The notes beneath the pieces are model-generated. The model worked only from the letters and a program-made list of their open reading frames with translations. It searched no databases and was not told where the DNA came from. Shown one piece after another: positions 13,496 to 29,060 of a stretch of DNA of 64,000 nt; the first letter of the stretch is position 1, and every line of letters starts with the position of its first letter. Origin of the DNA: Robertmurraya massiliosenegalensis JC6. GTDB lineage: Bacteria; Bacillota; Bacilli; Bacillales; Cytobacillaceae. Made by a program: the position numbers and the translations under genes. The stretch covers positions 490,478 through 554,477 of the forward strand of contig NZ_HE978514.1 of assembly GCF_000311725.1 (NCBI RefSeq), written 5' to 3'.

Positions 13496-13539
13496 AAAAC
13501 CAGGAAATTATTAGAAGGTGTGGGTTATTTGGCGCTTAC

Positions 13540-14158
13540 ATAGCAATCCTGCAATAGTTAACCTCACACCGTCGCTATTATCTTCAATTAGCCTTAAATC
13601 CCTTAAAAAAGATAAATCATCCTCTTGATACAGAGTTGAATCTTTATCTCGAGATTTTATTTTCAATTTTAAACTTTCTACTTCATGAAAATCTATATCA
13701 AATTCAGAAGTATCTTTTAAAATCTTAGCAGAGAAATCTCCTTTAAACCCCTGAATTATATTGGATTGATACTCTCCAGGATAAAAAGGTTTTGTATTTT
13801 TTCCTAATCGCTTATACACTGTTCCTCGAGATGTCGCTACAGTTTCAGGGGCTTTAGGAACTATAATTTTTAATATTTCTTTTCCATCAATAGTAATGTT
13901 CTCTATATCTGTAAAAACTTTTGGCACTGTACGGTCATATATACTCTCTATGATGCTCTGTTCATCATAATCTTGGCAGCCAGTTATTTCACCGTTATCT
14001 TCCACACCTACTAGAATTATGCCACCCTCAGCATTAGAAAAGCCTACAGTCTCGTTCGTTAAGATTTCCATAAGCTCTTTCTTATTCGGAATCTTTACCC
14101 AACTTTTAAACTCAACTACTTTATTTTCACCTCTTGCTATTACGTCCTTGATATCCAT
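13540..14158 (-). pseudogene. N-terminal part of Schlafen/AlbA_2 ATP-binding protein, split by IS66
   Basis: Start of the interrupted gene. The first 130 residues are a Schlafen AlbA_2 domain: ENKVVEFKSWVK, NAEGGIILVGVEDNGEITG, then RGTVYKRLGKNTKPF. IS66 cuts after the codons for RLTIAGLL, leaving 12 or fewer foreign residues. Proteins of this kind combine AlbA_2 with a GHKL-like ATPase and winged helices, act in nucleic acid or regulatory contexts, and are common in defence islands. The start at 14158 has GGGGG upstream and a plausible promoter (TATAAT-like) at about 14190-14215. Confidence 0.85.
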
Positions 14159-14442: not shown

Positions 14443-15618
14443 TCATTCAACATTTACAGCTTCTTGTTCTAACTTGCAATTGTTTTCAAGCATATAGTTA
14501 ATTACCTTATGATATTGGCTATCAACTAGCTTCGTAAGTCTTTTTTTATCATTTTCTGTTAATCTTTTGGTATACTTTTTGTGTGCTTCTAAGGTTTCTA
14601 TATCCATTTTAAATGGTATGAAATCTACGCCTGTTTGCCTCTTTAAATGCTCCAATATATAGAATCCACCAGCATCAATATCGCCAAAATGATAAAAAGC
14701 TATCTGAGAATTTTGTTGATGTATTTTTTTAATAATTTCTCGTCTCACTCTGTTATGGTAGCCACCAAGATAAATAGCAAGCATATCTTTATCGCTGAAT
14801 GTATGAAAGCTGGTTAAGTTTTCAATGGTTATGACAGCTTTTCCTGTCACTTCAATGCATTCAATATCAGAAAGCATTTTTGATGAGATAGCAATGTCGC
14901 TACTCAGGCTTGTTAAGTCAATCTTCTGGTCATTTATAGTTATACTCCCGGGGCCTTTAAAATTTACATGAGTGGGGTTTTTTACAATATTTAGATCACC
15001 TAAAATTCGATCCTTTTCCGGAAAAACACCGAATTCGTATATAAGATTTACTACTTTACCTGCAATTCGCTCAAAGACCTTTGAATCTTTAAAAACTTTT
15101 ACTGAAAAATCTCTGGCAAAGGTTTCAGTGTCAACTTTCAATAACTCATCAACGGCTATTAAAATATTCTCTAATTCCTCTAAATCATTATTAAAAAACT
15201 GTATCGTTTTATTAGAATGGATTCTCTCATATTGTGTTTCACAATATTTATTTAGTATTTGATTTTTGTTTTTGTAGATTTCCATTAGATTCAATACTGA
15301 ACTATTGATGTCCTTCTTAGGTTTTCGACCAATATATTTATATATATCTTCTAGTTTAGCAACATTCAAAATGACATTACTGTACACATGGGCAGAATTT
15401 GCCTTTGCAATGATAAAAGATGCTCTCACCAAAGTATCAACGGCTTCATTTACAGCCTGAAATATCTCATAATTTGAGTGATCAGTGTATCTGGGAAATA
15501 CCGAAGAAATTTTCACATTAAATCTTTGATTCACTTTATTTTCCCCGACAAAACTTTTGCTTTTCTCATACTTATCCAATAACTTATTAATAATTTCCTT
15601 TTCATACTTGCTTATCAT
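14443..15618 (-). CDS. jetD: Wadjet anti-plasmid nuclease subunit JetD
   Basis: JetD is the topoisomerase VI-like Toprim nuclease of Wadjet, which cuts circular DNA trapped by the JetABC loop-extruding motor. The 391-residue protein has an N-terminal DUF3322-type region and a C-terminal Toprim part with the expected acidic residues: E266 in ITIENLTSF and D313/D315 in HFGDIDAGGF. A conserved basic stretch GGYHNRVRREII lies between. It overlaps the jetC stop by 4 nt (ATGA), so translation is probably coupled. All catalytic residues are visible, so it should be active. Confidence 0.93.
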   Translation of the reverse strand: MISKYEKEIINKLLDKYEKSKSFVGENKVNQRFNVKISSVFPRYTDHSNYEIFQAVNEAVDTLVRASFIIAKANSAHVYSNVILNVAKLEDIYKYIGRKPKKDINSSVLNLMEIYKNKNQILNKYCETQYERIHSNKTIQFFNNDLEELENILIAVDELLKVDTETFARDFSVKVFKDSKVFERIAGKVVNLIYEFGVFPEKDRILGDLNIVKNPTHVNFKGPGSITINDQKIDLTSLSSDIAISSKMLSDIECIEVTGKAVITIENLTSFHTFSDKDMLAIYLGGYHNRVRREIIKKIHQQNSQIAFYHFGDIDAGGFYILEHLKRQTGVDFIPFKMDIETLEAHKKYTKRLTENDKKRLTKLVDSQYHKVINYMLENNCKLEQEAVNVE

Positions 15619-18600
15619 AGGTCATACTCCTCAATTATAGATGTACTCCCTTCTCTCATTGCCATTAAAATAGTATCTACCTTTTCACCAATTACTTCTA
15701 ACTTTGCAGGTGGAGTCGCTAATATAATTTGGAAATTTTGACTGTTAAAAAAGTCCATCATAGCACTGATTCGGTTGTCATCCATCTTGTCAAAGGCTTC
15801 ATCCAACATGATAATTCTAATCGTATCGCCAAGCTTATATAGCTGAACAAAAGATGCCGCTATTGCAACATAGTATGGGGTTTGGGTTTCCCCACCGCTC
15901 TTTTCTCCATAGATTTTAGAAAAACGTTGAACCGTTCCATCTTTTTTCTCAATTACAATATCATAGTCTAAATAACTACGATAATCCGTGTACTCTGCTA
16001 GAACTTTCTCTCCCTTATCGTCATATGCAGTTAATTTAGCAAATAAATCTTCCATTTCTTCCTTATATTCTTCTTCAAAGGAATTGGACCATATAGTATA
16101 TCCTTCATTATTATCTTTTGAAGTAATCATATGATAAATGCTTTCCTTCTTTTTATTGTAGGTTATTTCAAATTTATAACGATCCTCACCATAATATATA
16201 TCTTTAAGTGCTGAATTGAGGTTTTTAAATTCTAATCTTGCATTCTCGATGTTTTCTTTCAATCTCGCCAAAAATGATTCCCTGAATTCTAACTCACAAT
16301 TCTCTTTAGCTCTTTTTAAATCCTCTTCGTATTTTATAATATCTGATGCTACCAACTTATGATGTTCCTGAATATATTCATTGATTTGGTCATACCCAGT
16401 ACCGAGATCACAGTCATATTTACTACAGTAGCTGCTTTGGAGCTTAATCAGCTCGGTACAATACTCCTCTTTTTTATTTTCCAATCCAACTTTAAGTGGT
16501 GAAAAATTATGAACAATAGTTGCTGGAGATTTGATTTTTACTTGCTCATTAAACTTATTAATCCCTTGTATAGTAATTTCTGTGTCAATATTACATAGGT
16601 CATTGAAATTATTTTCTAATGCAGAAATTAGGCTTCCCTTGCTTTCTATATTTTCCTCATTTGATTCTATGGTATTTTTAAGCTTACCAATTGTTTCAAA
16701 AAGGGTATTATATTGAATTTGTTTTTTATCTACCGCTTGTTTACATTCGTCAATCTGCATTTGTATCTCAATATACCCTGGATTAGCTTGTGCTTTTTTT
16801 AGCTCGAATAACTCCCCGTTGATCAAGTCAATATTATCTGCCAAACGTTTAGGGGCATCCATGTTTTCTTTTAGGACATCCATTTTACATAGGTTTATTT
16901 TTTCTATTATTTCTTTATCATCAACGAGTTTACTTTCTGCTTTTTTTATATCCTCTTTTAAAATTTCTAGCTCAGCTTCTTTATTTTTAAGCTGAATTTC
17001 ATATGCGTGTGCTCCTATATAAGGAGTATGATAGACACTCTCAGCGATTTTACGAACTGCAAAATTTTGATAAAGCATACAATCAGATGTTATTGCAACT
17101 TTATAGTTTTTTAGGTTTTCTATATAGTCACAACGGAAAACACGATTAAGTAAGTAGGTAGCGTATGCTTTTGCATAACGATTATCACTTTTTAGAACAT
17201 ATGCAAGTGAATCTTTGTCAGCCACTGCATTAGTATCAAGCTTTCCAGTATTAACAAGTCCCACTGTATGGACTTCCTTTTTAATATTATTGTAAACCGT
17301 TAACGCCACTCGATAATGTTGTGGCTCAACAATAATGTAAAATCTCTGACTATTAAGGTACCCCTCTACTGCATTTTGCCACTTACTATCTGTAATCTCG
17401 AGCAAGTCTGAGAAGATTCTCACTTCACTTCGTATTCCCTGATTTAAAAATTCCTTTTCAATCGCTGTTTTCAATTTCATTGTATTCGGTGGGTATGTTA
17501 ATTTCTTATTTTTAAGATTTCTAATTTCATTTTCTAAATCAAGCCTTTGAAGTTTATATCTTTCAAGTAAATCCTTGATTCTATAGTGTTCAGAGCTATA
17601 CTCTTCAAATAATTTTTTAAGTTCTTTTTCTAATTTATAGATCATTTCCGCTTTCTTTTCAGTTTCTGTATTTACCGTCTCTAAACTTAATAGTTCTTCT
17701 TTTGTCATGATAAACACTTCATGTTGATGCAATAAGCTCAATGCATCAACGACTTTGTTTAACATGGCTTTAAGTTTATTAACTTCTATTACCTCTTTTT
17801 CCTTATCCTTCTTCAGTATTTCAATTCTATGTTTTATATCTTTAATAAGTAGTGTTGTTTCATTGTTTGAGAGTGCACCTTGTAGACTAGCAAGTCTATC
17901 TCTCTCATTTTCAAGACTTACTTTTTGAGTTTTTTCTATATTCTGCTGATTAATAAGCTTTTGCCCTAAGACGTAATTGTTTTGTATCAGTTCTTCACAT
18001 TCTTGCTTTTTTGCTTCAATCTCAGCTTTTTTTATTAAAATTTCATTGGTCTTTATCTCTCGATCTTTTGAAACAATGTCTTCATTTTTTGATAAAATCG
18101 TCTCAAGCTCTGATATCTTTTCCTTAGTTGAATCCATCAAATCTTCTAGCTCTTTTAAAGCAGCTATATTATTTCTCAAAGTTTCAACTTCTATTGTTTT
18201 TTCTGGGAGTATGAATTTATTAATAAAATCTTTAACATTATCCATAGGTTTAAATGCTAAGGATTTAGGTATCATATCAAAGAATCGAGGCTCCAAATTA
18301 CCTAGCCTTTGCCCAAACCTTGCTTTAGCTTCAGAAATCTGTGAAATGAGCTGCACCTTTTTATCATTTTTTCTAAATTCCTCTGTCGTAGATGGCCTTC
18401 CGCCGGTCAAGAAAGATAATTCCTCAAGTTTACTTTCTTCTCTAAACCATTTTGTTGTAAGTTTACTTTCTTCATCTGGTGAATCTATTTTAACTCCAAG
18501 AGTAAAATATTTACTTGTTTTTTCCTCATAGAATTCCAGTGCAACATATGTAATTACGCTGCCACTTCTGACATAGTTACTACCTTCAATTCCTGTTTTA

Positions 18601-18836
18601 CAACGGACATAGCCCTTTAAATCACGACTGCTTTTCTCATTTGCAGCTGTATTGAACTTACGTGTATTCGTAGTTAAAACTAATTGAATTGCATCTAAAA
18701 TTGTTGATTTTCCTGCCGTATTTTCACCACTGACTAAAAATGAGCCATTGACACTAATGGTTTCATTAACAAAGTAATGCCAGTTAATTAACCTAATCCT
18801 GCATAGTTTCTTCATCATCATTCTGCTCACCTCCAT
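15615..18836 (-). CDS. jetC: Wadjet SMC-like ATPase JetC
   Basis: SMC/MukB-like ATPase of the Wadjet motor that extrudes DNA loops. The 1073-residue protein has Walker A GENTAGKST at 37-45, long coiled-coil arms (about 230-460 and 640-900) around a hinge-like globular part near 465-640, the ABC signature KSGGETQ near 980 and Walker B IIMLDEAFD near 1008-1016. The first ATG gives MEVSRMMMKKLC; one of the later methionines may be the true start. It overlaps the end of jetB by about 30-44 nt. Length and motif order fit the family. Confidence 0.95.
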   Translation of the reverse strand: MEVSRMMMKKLCRIRLINWHYFVNETISVNGSFLVSGENTAGKSTILDAIQLVLTTNTRKFNTAANEKSSRDLKGYVRCKTGIEGSNYVRSGSVITYVALEFYEEKTSKYFTLGVKIDSPDEESKLTTKWFREESKLEELSFLTGGRPSTTEEFRKNDKKVQLISQISEAKARFGQRLGNLEPRFFDMIPKSLAFKPMDNVKDFINKFILPEKTIEVETLRNNIAALKELEDLMDSTKEKISELETILSKNEDIVSKDREIKTNEILIKKAEIEAKKQECEELIQNNYVLGQKLINQQNIEKTQKVSLENERDRLASLQGALSNNETTLLIKDIKHRIEILKKDKEKEVIEVNKLKAMLNKVVDALSLLHQHEVFIMTKEELLSLETVNTETEKKAEMIYKLEKELKKLFEEYSSEHYRIKDLLERYKLQRLDLENEIRNLKNKKLTYPPNTMKLKTAIEKEFLNQGIRSEVRIFSDLLEITDSKWQNAVEGYLNSQRFYIIVEPQHYRVALTVYNNIKKEVHTVGLVNTGKLDTNAVADKDSLAYVLKSDNRYAKAYATYLLNRVFRCDYIENLKNYKVAITSDCMLYQNFAVRKIAESVYHTPYIGAHAYEIQLKNKEAELEILKEDIKKAESKLVDDKEIIEKINLCKMDVLKENMDAPKRLADNIDLINGELFELKKAQANPGYIEIQMQIDECKQAVDKKQIQYNTLFETIGKLKNTIESNEENIESKGSLISALENNFNDLCNIDTEITIQGINKFNEQVKIKSPATIVHNFSPLKVGLENKKEEYCTELIKLQSSYCSKYDCDLGTGYDQINEYIQEHHKLVASDIIKYEEDLKRAKENCELEFRESFLARLKENIENARLEFKNLNSALKDIYYGEDRYKFEITYNKKKESIYHMITSKDNNEGYTIWSNSFEEEYKEEMEDLFAKLTAYDDKGEKVLAEYTDYRSYLDYDIVIEKKDGTVQRFSKIYGEKSGGETQTPYYVAIAASFVQLYKLGDTIRIIMLDEAFDKMDDNRISAMMDFFNSQNFQIILATPPAKLEVIGEKVDTILMAMREGSTSIIEEYDL

Positions 18837-19416
18837 TCATATATTTATTTAGTTTTTCATTTATAGCATCGTAAAGAAGAGTTAAATTATCATTGGGCAC
18901 AGCAAATAACACGGATGGATAAATCTTTATTCTTGCATCCGACATCGTAACATCACTGTCAAGATTTGAAACGATATTAAATCTCTTAAACAATCTAATT
19001 GTATCTCTAAACACTGTTTTATCTATGTTTGTTTTGGCTTCAATTTTGAGCATATTATACTTTTCGTGTATTTCATCTGATAAAACGATTACTTCCTCAT
19101 TCAGAGTTAATTCCTTCCGTTTTTCGATATACAATAGCCTCAAGATTAGTAAAATAATGCTTTCAATTTTCCTTAGCCTTATCCTCCCAGTGCCAGCAAC
19201 ATTAGTAAGGGCAACAACGCCTTGCATCTCATTAATTTCAATTCTATAACCTAGTAAATCGAAGTATTCTATGAAAAGCTCTCTATTCTGGACAATAAAA
19301 ATATAATCATTCCGTGTATCGTCTTTTTTCTTAAGGATAAAGCAATGATTGAGAAGTTTATTAGCAGTCGTTCTAAATTTTTCTTTTTGTATGACACTTT
19401 CTTTTAATATTTCCAT
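18793..19416 (-). CDS. jetB: Wadjet subunit JetB (DUF4194, MukE-like)
   Basis: MukE-like accessory subunit with winged-helix folds that binds the JetA kleisin and regulates DNA engagement. It is 207 residues, normal for DUF4194, with YIFIVQNRELFIEYFDLLGY and a central RIRLRKIESIILLILRLLYI helix characteristic of the family. It ends in an acidic tail (GGEQNDDEETMQD) encoded in the overlap with jetC. Only 5 nt separate it from jetA. Confidence 0.9.
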   Translation of the reverse strand: MEILKESVIQKEKFRTTANKLLNHCFILKKKDDTRNDYIFIVQNRELFIEYFDLLGYRIEINEMQGVVALTNVAGTGRIRLRKIESIILLILRLLYIEKRKELTLNEEVIVLSDEIHEKYNMLKIEAKTNIDKTVFRDTIRLFKRFNIVSNLDSDVTMSDARIKIYPSVLFAVPNDNLTLLYDAINEKLNKYMNGGEQNDDEETMQD

Positions 19417-19421
19417 TCTTA

Positions 19422-20837
19422 CTATTCACACCTCTCAATCACAAAATCTGAGAATCGAAAATCATTAACCGTAATAACCTCATTAGTTTGGGTTGTTTTA
19501 TACATAGATTTTTTGTCTTTTCCATAGAGATTTATAAAAATTATCCTTATTAAATCTCTCTTAGTATCTAAAGGAAGCGTAGAAGCCAGGACAGCTTGTT
19601 TATCCCTTAATAATTCTTCAATATATGTATTAATATTTTTTCTAGAAAATCTATTCTTATTTTTTTCATGTAAAGCAAGTTTCCGGCGTTCTCGCTCATC
19701 TTCCGAAATCCCAAGCGTAGAGCTAAGTTCTTGTGGCATAGACATTTTCCTTGAAATAGGAACTACATATAGCGAGTCACTATCGATAAATCCTTGTGGG
19801 AATATATTAAACACATTAAGGAGTGTGTCATCCACCTCATCATATAGGTTTATGGTTTCATCACGATTAAATTCATCAGATAAATACGCTAGTATCTTTG
19901 AAATCTTACCTTCTGTATTATTAGTATTAGTCAAAAGGAACTTCGCTCTAGCAACAGCACTTCCAATGTATTTAGCATTTTTGTTGTCTATTTCGGAAAT
20001 AATATCATCATAATTTCTAAAGGCCGAGATAACATTTAGTATCTTTCCTCTCAATAAATCTTCTGCTTCTACTTTTTCTTCTACTTGCTCTATTTCCATA
20101 TAGCCCAGTACTGCACGCTCAAAAATATTTTTATCATTTAATATGTTGTAAAGATTCTCAATTATTGACGTTCTAAAATGTGATATATTATCACTTGTTT
20201 TAATACGATGATAGGCTTTAGATCCGATATCTTTATGGTAAACAAAGAAATCCTGTACAATTTCCCCAGCCGTCTTTTCATTTGTAATAGCATCAATATA
20301 TTTCTTAATATTGGTGTTTAGTTTCTTTAGACCCGTTATTAATTCTTCTGTATTTTCTACTACACGTTTTATAATGTATTCATAGGGCTTCACATAGGCT
20401 TCTTTATTCAAAAGGGTGGCATGTATTTGAGATACTAGGCTCTGATATTCCATTTCTTCATTCTTTAATATCTTGTTGAAAGATTCAATCATAGTAGCAG
20501 CATAATCAAACAAATTTATCTTTACCCTATAGTCATTGGAAACCTCATATTCTAACCAACCACTGTCCTTTAAATTACGTAAAATTGCGTTTGCCTTTGC
20601 CCTGGAGTCCTTTGCAATCTCTTCATTATCATCAAATATCATATCTTCACTTGATTGATCTTCAAAATAACTTTCAAGCTCTGCAAGGATAACTTCTTTA
20701 TCAACGCCAAACGACAATTCAGTTTTATATGTATTGTATATGAGCCTGATACAATCAATATAGGTAGTTTTATATTTGCTCGTTAATGGTTTGAAAAAAT
20801 CTTCTGAAATTATGTTGAATAAATTTATGATAATCAC
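19422..20837 (-). CDS. jetA: Wadjet kleisin subunit JetA (DUF5716 type)
   Basis: MukF-like kleisin linking the JetC heads. The 471-residue protein begins MIIINLFNIISEDFFKPLTS, contains an N-terminal winged-helix region (DSGWLEYEVSNDYRVKINLF), a helical middle and a C-terminal region ending FSDFVIERCE. Its features resemble DUF5716-type JetA, which I associate with Wadjet type II, but the subtype is uncertain. It is first in the jetABCD operon; the promoter should lie in the 220 bp upstream. Confidence 0.85.
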   Translation of the reverse strand: MIIINLFNIISEDFFKPLTSKYKTTYIDCIRLIYNTYKTELSFGVDKEVILAELESYFEDQSSEDMIFDDNEEIAKDSRAKANAILRNLKDSGWLEYEVSNDYRVKINLFDYAATMIESFNKILKNEEMEYQSLVSQIHATLLNKEAYVKPYEYIIKRVVENTEELITGLKKLNTNIKKYIDAITNEKTAGEIVQDFFVYHKDIGSKAYHRIKTSDNISHFRTSIIENLYNILNDKNIFERAVLGYMEIEQVEEKVEAEDLLRGKILNVISAFRNYDDIISEIDNKNAKYIGSAVARAKFLLTNTNNTEGKISKILAYLSDEFNRDETINLYDEVDDTLLNVFNIFPQGFIDSDSLYVVPISRKMSMPQELSSTLGISEDERERRKLALHEKNKNRFSRKNINTYIEELLRDKQAVLASTLPLDTKRDLIRIIFINLYGKDKKSMYKTTQTNEVITVNDFRFSDFVIERCE

Positions 20838-21058: not shown

Positions 21059-23965
21059 TTAATAATACATCTCTACATAGCTATATGATTTATCGAACAA
21101 TTCCTTATCCTTAATCTTGTATTTCACCCATATCACGCTACGCAAAGCTTTCTTGACTTCTTGCTTACCGGTTGTTGTACTTTGCCAATCTGGGAAACGT
21201 ACAATTTTCACAATATCATCAATGTCATTTACGATTCTTTCAACGATAATAGGGGTATTCCTATTCTTCACACCATTAAATAGTTCTGTAAGGGCTGCTT
21301 TCCCTTTATCAATTTCTTCTTCGGGCACAGTTTCTTTTTCTGCTTCTGCCGCATCCTTCGCAAGTTCAAGAAGCCTTTTTAAGAACTCAACGCTAGTTAT
21401 TAAGCCTTGCTCATGTCTTTCTCTTAATTCTTCGAGTCTTTCACCTAATTTAATGAATTTCGGGTCTTTTCCGTGTTCTTGGATTCTGGCAACAAGATTA
21501 ATTTCTATTCTCTTAGCTGCTTTGTTTGGATCCTTGCGCCCTTCAAGATATTCATCAATAATATCCGCATCTAGACGCAAAATGTCTAAGTCATCATGGA
21601 CCTCATATACACTTACATTTTCATGTACCAATTCGATTGTTTTTGAACCAAGAGCGGCCCAAATGAGTGCACCTGAACCATTTGTTGGTTTTACCGATTC
21701 ATAAACTTTGGTGAGCCATAAATAATCGTATTTGAATGGAACTAAAAACTGATCTGGGGAAAGTGCATCCCATGCCCGATTGAGTACCCGATAATCGGCT
21801 CCGAACTGGTCTTTTTCTTTGTTTGTAGGTAGGCATTCTTGCGCCGCAACCAGCCCCTCCCATCCTTCAACCGTTCGATCAACTCCATAAAAATATTGCA
21901 AACACTTTTTCATCAGTTTCGGTAATTCATTTTTAACGTCATCAATGTTTGTAATAACCTTCTGAACACTTTTTTCATCAAAATCAAGAGCATTTGCAAC
22001 ATTGTCAAATATTCCGATATAGTCAACAATAAGTCCGTGTGTTTTTTCCTGACCATATACACGATTTGTACGACATATTGCCTGTAATAGCGTATGATCT
22101 TTCATAGGTTTGTCCAGATACATCGCTTGAAGAATTGGTGCGTCAAACCCTGTTAATAATTTCGATGTAACGATCACCAGTTTGAGAGGGCTATCCTTCT
22201 CACGAAAATAATCCAGAAGTTTCGCTTCTGCATCACGATCTCGGCGAAATGCTTTGTATTTATCTTCTTTGTCATTATTAGTATCCATGATAATTGTTGT
22301 TGCTTCTTCACCTAGTAATTTATCAAGCTCTTGCTTATACAGCAAACAGCATTCACGGTCGTAACAAACAACCTGTCCTTTAAATCCGCTAGGTTCGATT
22401 TTTTCTTTAAAATGTTTGGCAATATGTTCACAGACTTTCTTAATTCTGTCTGGCGATTTCATGACTGCTTCAATCTTAACACGACGAGCGAGTTCACTTT
22501 TTTCCTGTTCAGTCAGGTTTTTTGTCAATTCATCAAAAGCTAAATCAACCGCCTCTTGATTAATGTGTAAATCAACTGGCACCGCTTCAAAATGCAATGG
22601 TAAGGTTGCATTATCCCTTATAGAATCAGAAAATGAGTAACGACTCATATAGCCAGATTTATCTTCTTCTGCTCCAAATGTATAGAATGTATTCTTGTCG
22701 ATACGATTAATAGGAGTACCAGTTAAGCCGAAGAAAAATGCATTTGGTAATGCCATACGCATTTTTTCTCCCAAGTCACCTTCTTGTGTTCGGTGAGCCT
22801 CGTCTACCATTAAAATAATGTTATCTCTCTGATTAAGTACACCATCCACTTCACCAAACTTAAATATAGTGGTGATGAGGATTTTTCTCATATCCCCTTT
22901 GAAAAAGCTAACTAGATCTTCTTTGCTACTTGCACTCGCTAAATTGGGGATATCAGACGCATTGAAGGTAGCAGTAATTTGAGTTTCAAGGTCAATTCGA
23001 TCATCCACAATAACAACAGTAGGATTTTTCAGTTCTGGAATCATCCGAAGTTTTTGTGCCGCAAATACCATAAGAAGTGATTTTCCACTCCCTTGGAAGT
23101 GCCAAATAAGACCCTTTTTCGGATAGCCCGCTTTCACACGTTCGACAATAAGATTTGCCCCTTCAAATTGCTGATAGCGACAAATGATTTTATATTTCCG
23201 ATATTTCTTGTCCGTAGCAAATATGGTGAAGAATTGGAAGATATCCATGATGATTTCAGGTTTTATCATGGATAGAACACTGCGCTCAACATCTGCAAGC
23301 GTCCCTTCAGCCTTGTTTTCAGCTGTATGCCAAGGTCCCCATAGATTGATTGGCATGCAAACAGAACCGTAACGAAAATGCTTTCCTTCGGAGGCAAAAT
23401 TAAATACATTTGTCACAAACATTTGAGGAATACTTTTCTCATAGGCAGAAATATCCCCTGCACCGTCCATCCAAGTGATAGCACCTCTAGTTGGTGTTTT
23501 CAGCTCACCGATAGCAATTGGAAACCCGTTAATAAGCAATACAATATCCAATCTCTTCCCGCCATCTTCCTTAGGGAAGACCCATTGATTGGTGACAACA
23601 TATTCATTAAGAGCCATATTTTCTTTTGTTAGCGTACCAAAGAAACGGATTGGGACCATTCTTCCATCTTTACCAAATGGATATGAATTTTCTTCAAAAA
23701 CTAACTTTTTGAATAGCTCATTTTGGGTAACCAAGTTATGTGGTTGCACAGATAGAATGACCGTTCGTAGCTTATAGATCACCTCATCTGCACGCGTTGG
23801 ATCCTCAGCAATTTCAGGATTGAGCCGAATAAGTGCCTCCCGGACCATAGGCTCAACCATTACATCAGAATGTTGGCGTGGAAGATCTTCAGCAGGAATA
23901 TATCTCCAACCATTCTTGCATATTTTTTCCACTAGCATTTTTTCAAAATCGTGCTCAGTAAACAT
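21059..23965 (-). CDS. hsdR: Type I restriction endonuclease subunit R (HsdR)
   Basis: Motor and nuclease subunit of a type I restriction-modification enzyme: translocates DNA and cuts unmethylated DNA far from the target. In 968 residues I see the N-terminal nuclease site (D140 and ELK at 154-156), helicase Walker A FQGSGKS near 290-296, DEAH at 388-391 (VDEAHRTQEG), helicase motif VVTSKLLTGFDAPIL near 610 and AICRTNRVYG, then a long helical C-terminus ending YVEMYY. All motifs are present. It follows hsdS by 49 nt with a strong GGAGGTGAAAAT ribosome binding site. Confidence 0.95.
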   Translation of the reverse strand: MFTEHDFEKMLVEKICKNGWRYIPAEDLPRQHSDVMVEPMVREALIRLNPEIAEDPTRADEVIYKLRTVILSVQPHNLVTQNELFKKLVFEENSYPFGKDGRMVPIRFFGTLTKENMALNEYVVTNQWVFPKEDGGKRLDIVLLINGFPIAIGELKTPTRGAITWMDGAGDISAYEKSIPQMFVTNVFNFASEGKHFRYGSVCMPINLWGPWHTAENKAEGTLADVERSVLSMIKPEIIMDIFQFFTIFATDKKYRKYKIICRYQQFEGANLIVERVKAGYPKKGLIWHFQGSGKSLLMVFAAQKLRMIPELKNPTVVIVDDRIDLETQITATFNASDIPNLASASSKEDLVSFFKGDMRKILITTIFKFGEVDGVLNQRDNIILMVDEAHRTQEGDLGEKMRMALPNAFFFGLTGTPINRIDKNTFYTFGAEEDKSGYMSRYSFSDSIRDNATLPLHFEAVPVDLHINQEAVDLAFDELTKNLTEQEKSELARRVKIEAVMKSPDRIKKVCEHIAKHFKEKIEPSGFKGQVVCYDRECCLLYKQELDKLLGEEATTIIMDTNNDKEDKYKAFRRDRDAEAKLLDYFREKDSPLKLVIVTSKLLTGFDAPILQAMYLDKPMKDHTLLQAICRTNRVYGQEKTHGLIVDYIGIFDNVANALDFDEKSVQKVITNIDDVKNELPKLMKKCLQYFYGVDRTVEGWEGLVAAQECLPTNKEKDQFGADYRVLNRAWDALSPDQFLVPFKYDYLWLTKVYESVKPTNGSGALIWAALGSKTIELVHENVSVYEVHDDLDILRLDADIIDEYLEGRKDPNKAAKRIEINLVARIQEHGKDPKFIKLGERLEELRERHEQGLITSVEFLKRLLELAKDAAEAEKETVPEEEIDKGKAALTELFNGVKNRNTPIIVERIVNDIDDIVKIVRFPDWQSTTTGKQEVKKALRSVIWVKYKIKDKELFDKSYSYVEMYY

Positions 23966-24014: not shown

Positions 24015-25151
24015 TTAACCTACATATTGCTTCATAAGGGATTTGACCGTGTTTTCAAGGTTTGAGATTGTTTGTTGTAATTCATATTTTGATTTATCAA
24101 TTTGTTGGACGAAAGCAGCAAATTGATTCTGAAGGTCCAACGGTGGCAGAATAACTAGCAACTTCTTCAATTTTTCGCCCGTCAAATGTGGGATTGTTGA
24201 TTTTCCAACAATATCCTCAAAGCCATTAAGACTTGCACGCATAAAAAATACATATGCTAAATACTCTGGTACAAGTATTTCCGGATTACAGCGCACACGA
24301 TGAAGAGCCTTTTGAAAGTAGCAGTCTTCTATCTCCTCATTCCATATGGCAGTTCTGCCAACTTCACCACCTTCGCATACTAGCAAGTCACCCTTTTGGA
24401 GAGAAAACTCAACTCTATCTTTTTCAATAAAGTCCATCTTTTTGAGATTACTAAGATCAAAATGAAACCATTGAACATTGAAATTTGCAAGATATGGATA
24501 TTGACATTCTCCTGTCTGCTTCTTTGCATCAAGCATCTTCCCAAGACGAGTGTTCGAAACTTTTCCTAAAGGAGCAACAGGCCATCCCATCTGATTTGCA
24601 ACAGGATTTCCGAACATCTCAATAAATCGCGATTTAACAAGATCATTGGTTAAAGAAAGTAGCTTTTTATAAGCTTGTTTAGTTTCATTTGCAGCCCACA
24701 ATAACTCTGCAAGCTTCTCCTGTTCTTTAATATCAGGTAAATTGAATTTGTATTCAAGCAATACCTTTGGTGAAAGCCTCTTAGACATTGTTCCGTCAGA
24801 AAATTTTTCGGCAAATTCCCAAAAGGTATCCGTATTTAATACAAAAGGAAGTAGTTTCTTTATTAGTCTATCCTCGGCACGCAGTACGATAGAATCACCA
24901 GAAGTGATTCCATCAAAATTAACTATAGATGCCCGCCTCAAATACACATTACGTCGAGCTATCAAGATATCACCTGCACGAAAGACTTTCATGGCGGATT
25001 TTAACAAGTCCGTATTTCCATAGTTTTTTATTTCAACTTCACCTGAAATATAATGTTCAAGTCCGACAAATTTATCATATTTACAATTTGAGGGATTATC
25101 TTCACGATCCGAAATGACATCGACGATATCCCCTAATCTATACTTGATCAT
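24015..25151 (-). CDS. hsdS: Type I restriction specificity subunit (HsdS)
   Basis: Specificity subunit that recognises the bipartite DNA target for both methylation and cleavage. The 378 residues show two target-recognition domains (about 1-140 and 195-345), each followed by a conserved helical spacer: IKEQEKLAELLWAANETKQA near 140-160 and DLQNQFAAFVQQIDKSKYEL near 345-362. The first half starts RLGDIVDVISDR, the second GWPVAPLGKVSNTRLGKMLD. The start overlaps the hsdM stop (ATGA). The recognised sequence cannot be read from the protein. Confidence 0.95.
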   Translation of the reverse strand: MIKYRLGDIVDVISDREDNPSNCKYDKFVGLEHYISGEVEIKNYGNTDLLKSAMKVFRAGDILIARRNVYLRRASIVNFDGITSGDSIVLRAEDRLIKKLLPFVLNTDTFWEFAEKFSDGTMSKRLSPKVLLEYKFNLPDIKEQEKLAELLWAANETKQAYKKLLSLTNDLVKSRFIEMFGNPVANQMGWPVAPLGKVSNTRLGKMLDAKKQTGECQYPYLANFNVQWFHFDLSNLKKMDFIEKDRVEFSLQKGDLLVCEGGEVGRTAIWNEEIEDCYFQKALHRVRCNPEILVPEYLAYVFFMRASLNGFEDIVGKSTIPHLTGEKLKKLLVILPPLDLQNQFAAFVQQIDKSKYELQQTISNLENTVKSLMKQYVG

Positions 25152-26647
25152 TGTTTCTCACCACTATTCTCATAAAGCATATATTTTAATGTTTCATATG
25201 ATTTCTTAAACTCATCACTGCTACTTAACCAACTATCGAGGGCCTCGTCAAGAGAATACGATTCTTCACTATCCTTTTCACCAGTTGTCTTAACATACAG
25301 TGGAATGCTCAGTTTGCTACCATATTCAACAATCTGGTCAAGACTTGCAATAGCAGAAAAGCCTTCTTCTATCTTAAACTCACTATATGTTTGAGCAATT
25401 CTATGGATATGCTCTTCTTCAAGATAGCTTTCTGCATTCTTCCGAGTTACTTCATTCTTTGCATTAATGAATAACACTTGTCCTCTGCGAGAAACTTCCT
25501 TATTAGTCCGGCAAATAACAATACATGCCTCCATTGGTGAGTTAAAGAACAAGTTCTTTCCAATCCCAATCACACATTCGACCAGATCACTTCTCACAAG
25601 CTTTTCACGCATTTCCTTTTCCTCATCACGAAACAAAACGCCATGCGGAAATAGAATGGCACATCTGCCTGTTTTAGGATCTAAACTTTTTAATATGTGT
25701 TGAAAAAACGCATAATCTGCACGGCCTTGTGGCGGCGTTCCAAGGAAATTGCGTCCATACTTATCTGCCGAAAAGGCTTCACGGTCCCACTGTTTAATAG
25801 AATATGGTGGATTAGCAAGTACTAAATCAAATTGCATAAGTTGACCATTTTCGATAAAGGCAGGATTTTTCAAAGTGTCGTCGTTGATTATTTGAAAGTC
25901 TTTTACGCCATGAAGGAATAGGTTCATACGACCAATAGCCGATGTTAGTGCATTAATTTCCTGCCCATAAATCTTTACATTTCTCCATTCCAGATCCTGC
26001 TGCTTCAAATAAGCTATGGAGGATATTAGCATACCTGCACTACCACATGTCGGATCATAAATGCTTTCACCAGATTGTGGTTTGAGCATTTCAGTCATGA
26101 GATGCACTACTGTTCGATTCGTATAAAATTCTTGAGCTGTATGCCCGCTATCATCCGCAAATTTCTTAATCAAATATTCATAGCCTTGACCTAGTTCATC
26201 TTCAGGACAGTTCTCCATTGATAGAGTTTTTGTGGAGAAGTGTTCAATTAAATCTTTCAGCAATTCATCAGGCAGTCGATTTTTGTTCGTCCAAGCACCA
26301 TCGCCAAAGACGCCATGTAACTTTTCAACATTTGCTTTTTCAATTGCACGAAAGGCATTAATGATGGCAACACCCACGTTTTCAGATACTGAGCGGACAT
26401 CTTTCCAGTGGGATCCTTTTGGAACAATGAATCGATGGTTTTCTTCCCATTCTAGGGCTTCTTCATCTCCATCATATTCTTTCAAAATCTCCGTACATTC
26501 TTCATCATAAACATCACAAATTCGCTTAAAAAACATAAGAGGAAAAATGTATTGTTTATATGATCCTGCATCAATATGTGTACGAAGAAGGACTGCAGAA
26601 TTCCATAGATAGGATTTCAATTCATCAAGTGTAATTCGATTACTCAC
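25148..26647 (-). CDS. hsdM: Type I DNA methyltransferase subunit HsdM (second, stand-alone copy)
   Basis: N6-adenine methyltransferase subunit. The GTG at 26647 is preferred because GGAGG lies 8 nt upstream and the product then starts MSNRITLDELKSYLWNSAVL, giving 499 residues; the open frame upstream overlaps the preceding gene. It has the HsdM N-terminal helical domain, SAM-binding motif DPTCGSAGM at about 198-206, and catalytic NPPY at about 279-282. It differs from the neighbouring fused HsdM across its length, so this is not a recent duplication. Start and stop overlap both neighbours, implying a tightly coupled operon. Confidence 0.93.
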   Translation of the reverse strand: MSNRITLDELKSYLWNSAVLLRTHIDAGSYKQYIFPLMFFKRICDVYDEECTEILKEYDGDEEALEWEENHRFIVPKGSHWKDVRSVSENVGVAIINAFRAIEKANVEKLHGVFGDGAWTNKNRLPDELLKDLIEHFSTKTLSMENCPEDELGQGYEYLIKKFADDSGHTAQEFYTNRTVVHLMTEMLKPQSGESIYDPTCGSAGMLISSIAYLKQQDLEWRNVKIYGQEINALTSAIGRMNLFLHGVKDFQIINDDTLKNPAFIENGQLMQFDLVLANPPYSIKQWDREAFSADKYGRNFLGTPPQGRADYAFFQHILKSLDPKTGRCAILFPHGVLFRDEEKEMREKLVRSDLVECVIGIGKNLFFNSPMEACIVICRTNKEVSRRGQVLFINAKNEVTRKNAESYLEEEHIHRIAQTYSEFKIEEGFSAIASLDQIVEYGSKLSIPLYVKTTGEKDSEESYSLDEALDSWLSSSDEFKKSYETLKYMLYENSGEKQ

Positions 26648-29060
26648 TGATATATCCTCCTTCCACCAACAATCTTTTATATTTCTCTTCTGCCTCGATT
26701 GCTTCATTTACTGCTAAAAAGAAGGCCCTTTTTACTTCTTTAGGAGAGATGGTTTCCTGTGGAGCTTTTTCGATAAAACTATTAACTGAAAGTGAATAAT
26801 CCTTCTTCCTAATATCATCAATAGTAGCTACTTTTGCCTTTTCCATTACATCTTCATAATTTTGATAAAGTTCAAATACTTCCTCAACATTTCTTTCCGT
26901 CATTATGTTTTGTGCCCGCTGTGCTGTATAGATATTCGAAGCATCGATAAAACAAACCTTAGCTTTATGTTCTGAAGGCTTGTTGTTATTTAGTATTAAA
27001 ATACAAGCTGACACACCTGTACTATAAAACACTCCGCTCACAAGAGTAATGACGCACTCTAATTTGTCTGATTCAATCAGTTGCTTCCGTATTTCCCTTT
27101 CTCTTCCTCCATGGAACAGTACACCTTGTGGTAATACAACTGCACATCGACCATTGTTTTTATCCATAGATGTAACCATGTGCTGCAGCCATGCGAAGTC
27201 AGCACTAGAATCCGTTGGACTTCCCCAGAGATTCCGGCCATATACATCTGATGCAAATTGATCGGCTCCCCACTTTTTCAATGAAAAAGGCGGATTGGCG
27301 ATTACACAATCAAAGGTTTGTAATTCGCCTCGATGTAGGAATACTGGGGAGCGAAGAGTATCCCCTTGTTTTATTTTAAAATCACGAGCTCCATGCAAAA
27401 ACAAGTTCATTCTTGCAATTGCGGATGTGGCAAGATTCTTTTCCTGGCCATAGATTTTACCATAGGCTCTTCGATCATTATTCATATTGCGAATGGCTTC
27501 GATTAACATACCACCCGTCCCACAGGCTGGGTCATATACGGTTTCTCCTGGTTTTGGATTGAGAATTTTGACCATTAATTTGACAACGGAACGAGGTGTA
27601 TAGAATTCACCTGCATTTTTCTTGGAAAGGTCAGCAAACTTCTTAATTAAGTATTCATAGCTATCACCCATCACATCGGATGAATAATTGTTATTGCCAA
27701 CTTTGATTTTAGACATATGCTCAATAAGGTCTTTTAGCCGTTCATCCGTTAATTTGTTTTTATCGGTCCAATTCGCATCGTCAAAACTAGAAAACACACC
27801 AAAAAGCGTGTCTGGATTAGCACGTTCAATGCCAACCATTGCATCTACAATTGCTTTTCCAACATTTTCAGATTGTTCACGAACATCATTCCAATGGCAA
27901 CCATCTGGGATAATAAAACTATGGTTTTCGGGGAAAGAAGCATATTCTTCATCTCCACCAGATTCTTCAAGTGCTTTTGCTGTTTCTTCGTCATAAACAT
28001 CTGATAACCGTTTAAAGAACAAAATGGGTGTTACATAACTTTTATATTCATCTTGATTAATAGGGCCACGAAGGATATTACAGCACTCAAAAAGGTGAGA
28101 GAATAGTGCTTGACTTGATGTTTTCTCATTCTTAGCAAAACTCATGTTCAGATCATCATCAGCAACATCTACAGCTGATGCGATCATTTCTTTTCGCCTT
28201 CCAGTTTTTATTTTCTTCCCATTTTGGGGTTTCTTGATAGCGACTGATTTGTCTCCATTTATTGTTTCTATCTTTGGAGCAAATACATTTTCAAAATCTA
28301 TTAGAATTTTCATTAACCGTTCGTCAAGGAAAGTGAGTGCATGTTTCCTAATATTTGTAGGAATGCCATAGTAAGCCTCTGCTATCCCTCCTGTTATGGC
28401 TGCTAGTGTATCACTGTCGCCACCGATAGAAATAGCATTGCGAATAGCATCCTCAAAACTAGTAGACTCAAGAAATGCCATTATTGCCTGAGGTACAGTG
28501 TCTTGACAAGTTTCATTAAACTCATATGAATCACGAATACTATCTAGAGTAAAATTCATTGGATAGTAATGATCATTAATATAGTCTCTGATCTCGAGTA
28601 TGTTTTTCCCAGTTTTTGCAAGAAAGGTCGCAATAGCAGTAGCCTCTGCCCCTTTCATTCCTTCTGGGTGATTGTGAGTGACTTCAGTTACCTTCTTAGA
28701 TAGTTGTTTTGCTTCTTCTAACGTCGAGGCAGCAAAACCACATGCGCTCACACGCATGGCTGCTCCATTACCAAAGCTATTATATGGTTGAGGATTATCA
28801 GAATACATCCATTCATTAAACATTCCACCATACCCCGAATCGGGATATGGACGTCCAATTTCTTGCATATAAGACACAGCAAGTTCGTTTAAGTTCTGAT
28901 AATCACCTTTACAGTCAAGAATAGCTTTAGCAATCGCTAATGACATAATACTATCGTCAGTGACAAAGCATTTATATGTTAAAAAATCAAACTCTTTTGT
29001 TTTAATATTGTTCCATTCAAACCGCGACCCAACAATATCGCCAATTATAGCTCCTAACAT
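26640..29060 (-). CDS. ADP-ribosylglycohydrolase-HsdM fusion protein
   Basis: An 806-residue two-domain protein. Residues 1-260 form an ADP-ribosylglycohydrolase (ARH/DraG-type): MLGAIIGDIVGSRFEW, the metal-binding TDDS at 34-37, GYGGMFNEWM near 77-85, GNGAAMR near 98-103 and GGDSDT at 213-218. A basic linker (about 265-300) leads into a complete HsdM: GPINQDEYKSYVTPILFFKR near 332-351, SAM motif DPACGTGGM at 510-518 and catalytic NPPF at 589-592. The first part would remove ADP-ribose from a target; the second methylates adenine. It is the first gene of the hsd operon. An ATG at 28187 with GGAAGG 9 nt upstream could also make free HsdM. The frame is continuous, without sign of an assembly join. 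Confidence 0.9.
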   Translation of the reverse strand: MLGAIIGDIVGSRFEWNNIKTKEFDFLTYKCFVTDDSIMSLAIAKAILDCKGDYQNLNELAVSYMQEIGRPYPDSGYGGMFNEWMYSDNPQPYNSFGNGAAMRVSACGFAASTLEEAKQLSKKVTEVTHNHPEGMKGAEATAIATFLAKTGKNILEIRDYINDHYYPMNFTLDSIRDSYEFNETCQDTVPQAIMAFLESTSFEDAIRNAISIGGDSDTLAAITGGIAEAYYGIPTNIRKHALTFLDERLMKILIDFENVFAPKIETINGDKSVAIKKPQNGKKIKTGRRKEMIASAVDVADDDLNMSFAKNEKTSSQALFSHLFECCNILRGPINQDEYKSYVTPILFFKRLSDVYDEETAKALEESGGDEEYASFPENHSFIIPDGCHWNDVREQSENVGKAIVDAMVGIERANPDTLFGVFSSFDDANWTDKNKLTDERLKDLIEHMSKIKVGNNNYSSDVMGDSYEYLIKKFADLSKKNAGEFYTPRSVVKLMVKILNPKPGETVYDPACGTGGMLIEAIRNMNNDRRAYGKIYGQEKNLATSAIARMNLFLHGARDFKIKQGDTLRSPVFLHRGELQTFDCVIANPPFSLKKWGADQFASDVYGRNLWGSPTDSSADFAWLQHMVTSMDKNNGRCAVVLPQGVLFHGGREREIRKQLIESDKLECVITLVSGVFYSTGVSACILILNNNKPSEHKAKVCFIDASNIYTAQRAQNIMTERNVEEVFELYQNYEDVMEKAKVATIDDIRKKDYSLSVNSFIEKAPQETISPKEVKRAFFLAVNEAIEAEEKYKRLLVEGGYISE

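Follow-up and report, generated by a model that had tools for sequence, protein, structure and literature searches.

The window analysed here, a stretch of 64,000 nucleotides from Robertmurraya massiliosenegalensis JC6 (contig NZ_HE978514.1, positions 490,478 to 554,477), encodes a Type I restriction-modification (R-M) operon whose first gene joins an ADP-ribosylhydrolase (ARH) domain to a complete DNA methyltransferase subunit, HsdM1 (M1), in one open frame. The restriction system is known in kind, while the ARH-HsdM fusion is new: our search of the published literature returned no description of it, with the proviso that domain databases beyond those used may list the architecture. The papers that match both terms treat ARH and Type I genes separately in the text available, and the term 'ADP-ribos' was not found in the accessible parts of PMC12839542 and PMC12707154. 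The fusion, the architecture with two unlike M subunits, the conserved active site, the purifying selection, the ARH3-like fold, the recurrence and the gains and losses described below were obtained by sequence analysis and modelling. The explanation that we favour, at somewhat less than an even chance, is that the ARH domain removes ADP-ribose put by phage transferases on the assembled complex of methylase, specificity and restriction subunits, M1M2S(R), or on proteins nearby.

The fusion gene lies on the minus strand at 26640..29060, where a single frame of 806 codons, read from 29060 to 26640, runs through the ARH domain, a linker of variable sequence and an entire HsdM; the plus strand across the same interval shows stop codons throughout. 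The ARH domain (residues 1-253, 28302..29060) was assigned by Pfam, by PDB sequence matches and by its ARH3/DraG fold. It matches ADP_ribosyl_GH (PF03747) over residues 1-233 with an E value of 1.9e-35 and a score of 123.4 bits against a gathering cut-off of 26.2, and it contains the metal motifs TDDS (residues 34-37, 28950-28961) and GGDSDT (residues 213-218, 28407-28424), as well as the TH motif at T128-H129. HsdM1, the predicted N6-methyladenine (m6A) subunit, spans residues 315-806 plus the stop (26640..28118), with Pfam matches to HsdM_N at residues 321-449 (E 1.1e-25) and N6_Mtase at residues 460-768 (E 5.7e-100); motif search places AGEF at residues 483-486 (27603-27614), DPACGTGG at 510-517 (27510-27533) and NPPF at 589-592 (27285-27296). 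The linker between them (residues 254-314, 28119..28301) is variable in sequence, with not one invariant column at residues 263-310 across 60 fusions, and is modelled as a hairpin and a helix, with block means of the predicted local distance difference test (pLDDT) of 76-92 over residues 261-310. An earlier sequence-only reading of this DNA had given the same coordinates, codon count and motifs (TDDS, GGDSDT, DPACGTGG and NPPF), all of which were borne out when the frame was read again, and by their sequences both domains look functional; the strand, which it had left unstated, is minus. Misassembly or a frameshift as the source of the fusion is ruled out, because a second genome, that of Bacillus sp. 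MRMR6 (L021), encodes it in the same operon with 94-95% identity.

Scanning one genome per species (84,980 genomes) returned 137 relatives; 80 of them were retained. ARH and M1 form one frame of more than 700 amino acids in 59 of these 80 loci, a count that includes one locus whose N-terminus is cut by the contig end (L068) and one in which M1 ends early (L075, 766 amino acids). Five further loci (L064, L079, L080, L083 and L087) hold both parts, interrupted or cut by a contig end, 15 have M1 without ARH, as judged by tblastn of the locus DNA, and one (L084), which begins right at the edge of its contig, leaves the presence of ARH undecidable. The share of ARH-less loci is likely underestimated, because the scan peptides came partly from ARH and the best matches were kept. 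A second methylase gene (M2) follows M1 wherever the contig continues, two contigs (L083 and L087) ending before it, and hsdR is found before or after the M genes in 58 of the 80 loci. Recurrence in unrelated genomes, which the sequence-only reading had proposed as the supporting test for a function, extends by the labels of the fused loci over seven bacterial phyla (Bacillota, Mycoplasmatota, Verrucomicrobiota, Synergistota, Deferribacterota, Pseudomonadota and Spirochaetota) plus one archaeon; many of these loci are metagenome bins, in which binning errors are possible, and several are named strains. The archaeal locus (L045, Methanomicrobium mobile BP) reads R, ARH-M1, M2 and an S gene cut by the contig end, and its copy, which is nested among bacterial copies on the tree, is likely the result of cross-domain transfer. 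Within the window's own phylum the fusion is rare: the ARH subfamily is present in 55 of 398 genomes (E up to 1e-20), and in two of the 55, the window's own and one with an interrupted copy (G107), it is joined to M1; a search of equal size with M1 matched six of 398 genomes (E up to 1e-100).

The eight key ARH positions are intact in 54 of the 59 fusions, conservation of the active site across these 59 sequences is well above the average of the ARH domain, and the ratio of nonsynonymous to synonymous substitution rates (dN/dS) in the domain is low; by these sequence measures the ARH domain is under purifying selection. A dead ARH as a general rule was rejected, since the catalytic residues are mostly kept, and catalysis by the domain is likely. 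When modelled, the domain takes the all-helical ARH fold, and ARH3 is its best match both in structure comparison and among PDB sequences. Frames of the same subfamily that are not fused to M1 are mostly 255-330 amino acids long in the 398 genomes, and the longer ones that were read (G189, G342, G371 and G459) are without an HsdM part. The window's genome has two further PF03747 genes, on another contig, and the same subfamily is also found fused to DUF6508 and DUF1643 (L101:8048-9364, L143:7797-10043).

The history of the fusion was followed on two trees. On the M1 tree (59 fused and 15 ARH-less sequences and one outgroup, with L084, L068 and five distant outgroup rows left out), ARH presence needs seven changes (7-8 in bootstrap trees), and at least four such changes are forced by well-supported branches; a single loss, with one ARH-less clade, was rejected by the approximately unbiased (AU) test (p-AU 0.00026). 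The ARH tree held 60 fused and 33 other sequences, L133 and L149 being identical proteins, and lacked L136 and L137, for which no match was long enough. Fused ARHs group together on it, except that L108 and L109, both free-standing ARHs, fall within the group, and a strictly closed clade of fused ARHs was rejected as well (p-AU 0.003). Brevibacillus L023 and Paenibacillus L024 share 97.1% identity in M1 and 89.4% in ARH; L023 and L029 share 92.9% in ARH and 78.6% in M1, with the identity change in this comparison falling around residue 400-450. Judging by these sequences, the ARH module has been exchanged between lineages, and because of the changes on the M1 tree, the clustering of the fused ARHs and this exchange, the ARH was probably fused rarely, and then lost and swapped. 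Spread by plasmids or named phages was rejected, as none of 72,556 plasmid and 50,697 phage records covers 80% of the fusion protein; a stand-alone ARH, at 66%, is present in one phage record (MT837245). Nine IMG/VR contigs (L151-L158 and L160, L156 being cut at its start) carry the ARH-M1 gene, and four of them duplicate the DNA of genome loci (L152/L034, L153/L032, L155/L054 and L160/L033); this would fit a gene carried by prophages or integrative elements.

The operon contains four genes, all on the minus strand, in the order ARH-HsdM1, HsdM2, hsdS and hsdR. HsdM2 (25148..26647), the predicted N4-methylcytosine (m4C) subunit, has 499 amino acids from a GTG at 26647, which is preceded by a GGAGGA site and gives an 8-nucleotide overlap with the end of the fusion gene, or 519 from an ATG at 26707; motif search finds AQEF at 26126-26137 and NPPY at 25802-25813 (residues 299-302 in the 519-residue numbering). 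HsdS (24015..25151, 378 amino acids) has two Methylase_S stretches, and HsdR (21059..23965, 968 amino acids) matches Pfam and scores above the cut-off of TIGR00348. The hsdR and hsdS neighbours that the sequence-only reading had in view are therefore both present; it had missed the second HsdM overlapping the end of the fusion and, with it, the two-M-subunit kind of the system. Among PDB sequences, in fact, the window M1 is closest to PacII M1 (7vru_A, E 2.2e-139) and the window M2 to PacII M2 (7vru_B, E 8.1e-171), and like PacII (PacII_M1M2S, PDB 7vru/7vs4) the operon has two unlike M subunits, M1 with AGEF and NPPF and M2 with NPPY, together with an HsdS with two target domains and an HsdR. 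Because the PacII subunits are the closest matches, with NPPF and NPPY respectively, we predict that M1 makes m6A and M2 makes m4C here, as the available part of Zhu et al. 2022 (PMC9613975) reports for systems of this kind, in which M2 can also make m6A on an altered substrate. PacII M1, however, has 499 amino acids and no ARH, and the published M2 motif is AAEF, whereas AQEF is read in the window M2 and in all 73 of the 73 M2 frames, the window's counted in. AAEF is a signature reported from aligned systems and was not treated as definitional; by its motif, AQEF would place the window system in a subgroup neighbouring PacII, not in PacII itself, and the operon as a whole reads as a Type I R-M system of the PacII kind, non-canonical and heterodimeric in its methylases (M1M2S plus R). 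Directly downstream of hsdR lies a Wadjet type I set (JetA, B, C and D, 14443-20837), with an AlbA_2/Schlafen-like gene near it at 13511-14158, and these form a defence island with the hsd operon.

A partner transferase was sought among the neighbours. The Pfam scan covered 128 of 204 neighbour genes, as representatives at fused loci, and no ADP-ribosyltransferase was among the nine families that matched at least two neighbours, within the 25 of 138 matched families listed. The 17 neighbour clusters present in at least two fused loci, scanned singly, gave none either, five of the 17 having no Pfam match; the matches were to recombinases, NUDIX, WYL, YaaA, RNA methylase, mobilisation, transposase, AlbA_2, HTH and SymE. 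Pfam found no ADP-ribosyltransferase in the window operon or in the adjoining genes scanned. In the window's genome the DarT family had no match while its control search worked, and ART and ADPrib_exo_Tox had none, but their controls gave no signal either. A fixed partner transferase was thus not found among recurring neighbours, which leaves room for single cases, unmatched families and partners encoded at a distance. WYL genes lie near two of the 64 fused loci and NUDIX genes near five, Metallophos was matched by two of the 128 neighbours, and a Nudix-looking frame follows hsdR in L154, as seen by eye; other defence genes among the neighbours include KwaB, type IV restriction and AbiJ.

Two groups predominate among the clusters of flanking genes, a recombinase and a protein of about 640 amino acids. 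A tyrosine recombinase (Phage_integrase) of the hsdS type lies in the operon region of 27 of the 80 loci (e.g. L026:13582-14565), often with extra or half hsdS genes, and this combination likely reflects phase-variable specificity. A protein of about 640 amino acids (L152:10398-12311), whose cluster stands beside the operon in 10 of the 80 loci, has a zinc-protease-like VVHECVHW motif, no Pfam match and a weak match to capP (E 1.8e-5). A gene of about 535 codons, which we call gene X (L152:611-2215, L151:3379-4992 and L158:7320-8915, among others), encodes a degenerate N6_Mtase-like part fused to one Methylase_S target domain; it stands upstream of M1 (or R) in 28 of 64 fused and seven of 15 ARH-less genome loci, and is not beside the window operon. 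The motif NPP[FYWH] is missing in all 42 of its 42 copies, a few of which are duplicate records, and its sequence suggests that gene X is a dead methylase that brings along a specificity domain.

In the explanation we favour, M1, the m6A subunit, would carry a catalytically competent ADP-ribosylhydrolase at its N-terminus. The available part of PMC9613975 describes M1 as binding S first and M1M2S as holding one M1 and one M2; if the same holds here, there would be one tethered eraser per complex, and, as M1 nucleates assembly in PacII, an ARH on M1 would be present at high local concentration. Phage-encoded transferases would ADP-ribosylate the M1M2S(R) complex or proteins near it, and the ARH would strip the ADP-ribose, so that the complex could keep binding, methylating and cutting, a built-in counter-counter-defence. 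The hydrolase activity, a protein of the complex as substrate and a phage transferase as attacker are what we infer here, and an outside source of the ADP-ribose is suggested because the hydrolase was found without a transferase of its own, following the logic in the available part of Iyer et al. (PMC9503650). The sequence-only reading had raised both protection of the restriction complex from ADP-ribosylation and a self-control step; the former appears to fit best, because the recurring neighbours yielded no transferase, the module is gained and lost, and there is a precedent in AcrIF11, a phage/plasmid ADP-ribosyltransferase that disables a CRISPR complex (PMC12421852, available part), while the latter looks less likely for want of a recurring partner transferase. 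In its widest form, our proposal is that a natural, built-in de-ADP-ribosylation module shields a DNA-targeting defence complex from viral transferases, having spread as a single cassette through genomes labelled as seven bacterial phyla and one archaeon and being dropped or swapped whenever the attack shifts, a view to which we give rather less than an even chance.

A number of observations weigh against this proposal. We know of no phage transferase that acts on a Type I enzyme, and our literature search found none that targets one. The ARH domain is dispensable, as 15 of the 80 loci are without it, and three fusions (L040, L067 and L076) have decayed metal sites. Most members of the ARH subfamily occur without HsdM, so its ancestral substrate may be something else. 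The neighbour scan covered the proportions of genes, families and clusters given above. Finally, macrodomains expressed in cells did not rescue growth against AcrIF11 phage, perhaps owing to poor expression (PMC12421852, available part).

Were the ARH to act on, or sense, a soluble ADP-ribose compound (ADP-ribose, O-acyl-ADP-ribose or a cyclic derivative), it could link NAD-consuming defence or stress to restriction. ARH3 as best fold and sequence match would suit such a role, as would the cleavage of O-acetyl-ADP-ribose by this domain class (PMC9503650, section 3.4.2) and the free-standing relatives, which had no obvious common neighbour in 13 neighbourhoods inspected by eye; however, Iyer et al. 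argue, in the part of that paper available, that the class favours macromolecular adducts, and a pure sensor would not need the hydrolytic residues that are kept. We consider this role unlikely, though worth bearing in mind. A substrate on DNA seems rather unlikely too; here the ARH would clear ADP-ribose from the bases or ends of DNA, whether invading or damaged, and so let the complex read its site. The domain does sit on a DNA enzyme and ARH3 acts on DNA ends, but the enzymes known to erase ADP-ribose from bases are macrodomains and NADAR, and the ARH is acidic, with a net charge of -15 in the window and a mean of -9.7 in 60 fusions, although the free-standing relatives are equally so (mean -12.2). 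DNA ADP-ribosylation by DarT-type enzymes is established in the literature available, yet the DarT family went unmatched in the window's genome.

It is improbable, in our view, that a host transferase ADP-ribosylates the complex to restrain restriction and the fused ARH frees it, as DraT and DraG do on nitrogenase: the neighbour scan, within the scope given above, found no transferase among recurring neighbours, and DarT, ART and ADPrib_exo_Tox were unmatched in the window's genome, only the DarT control having worked. Still less do we expect the ARH to be a structural or accidental appendage with no catalytic role; the ARH-less loci and the three decayed copies would fit an appendage, but active-site conservation above the domain average and a low dN/dS argue against it.

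Phages turn ADP-ribosylation against their hosts, and among the enzymes that do so is a known anti-CRISPR. We know of no description of a host eraser that is a natural part of a defence complex, and to our knowledge the eraser step has so far been shown only with an added macrodomain against AcrIF11; if our proposal is true, the fusion would be the natural counterpart of that step. It gives a concrete enzyme, residues and natural pairs with and without the domain for asking whether bacteria counter ADP-ribosylation, and the proposal predicts phages or plasmids with transferases aimed at Type I restriction complexes. With ARH3, DraG and ARH1 (PF03747) the window ARH shares the fold, the two-metal Asp motifs, the SxGNG loop and the TH motif, but those enzymes are free-standing whereas the window ARH is fused to HsdM, and it is also shorter than ARH3. 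The ARG-centred systems that Iyer et al. described in 2022 (PMC9503650, section 3.8), predicted to counter viral ADP-ribosylation, resemble it in their conflict setting and in having a hydrolase with no coupled transferase found, which for the fusion holds within the neighbour scan described above, but, by the part of the paper available, they often come with Nudix/WYL regulators, phosphatases or chaperones (frequent, not universal), none of which Pfam found in the window operon; that part mentions no fusion of this ARH class to a Type I methylase. AcrIF11 differs in its CRISPR target, and its tag was erased by a human macrodomain added to lysate only, which is not a natural part of a defence (PMC12421852, available part), but it is an attack of the sort that an eraser within the complex would reverse.

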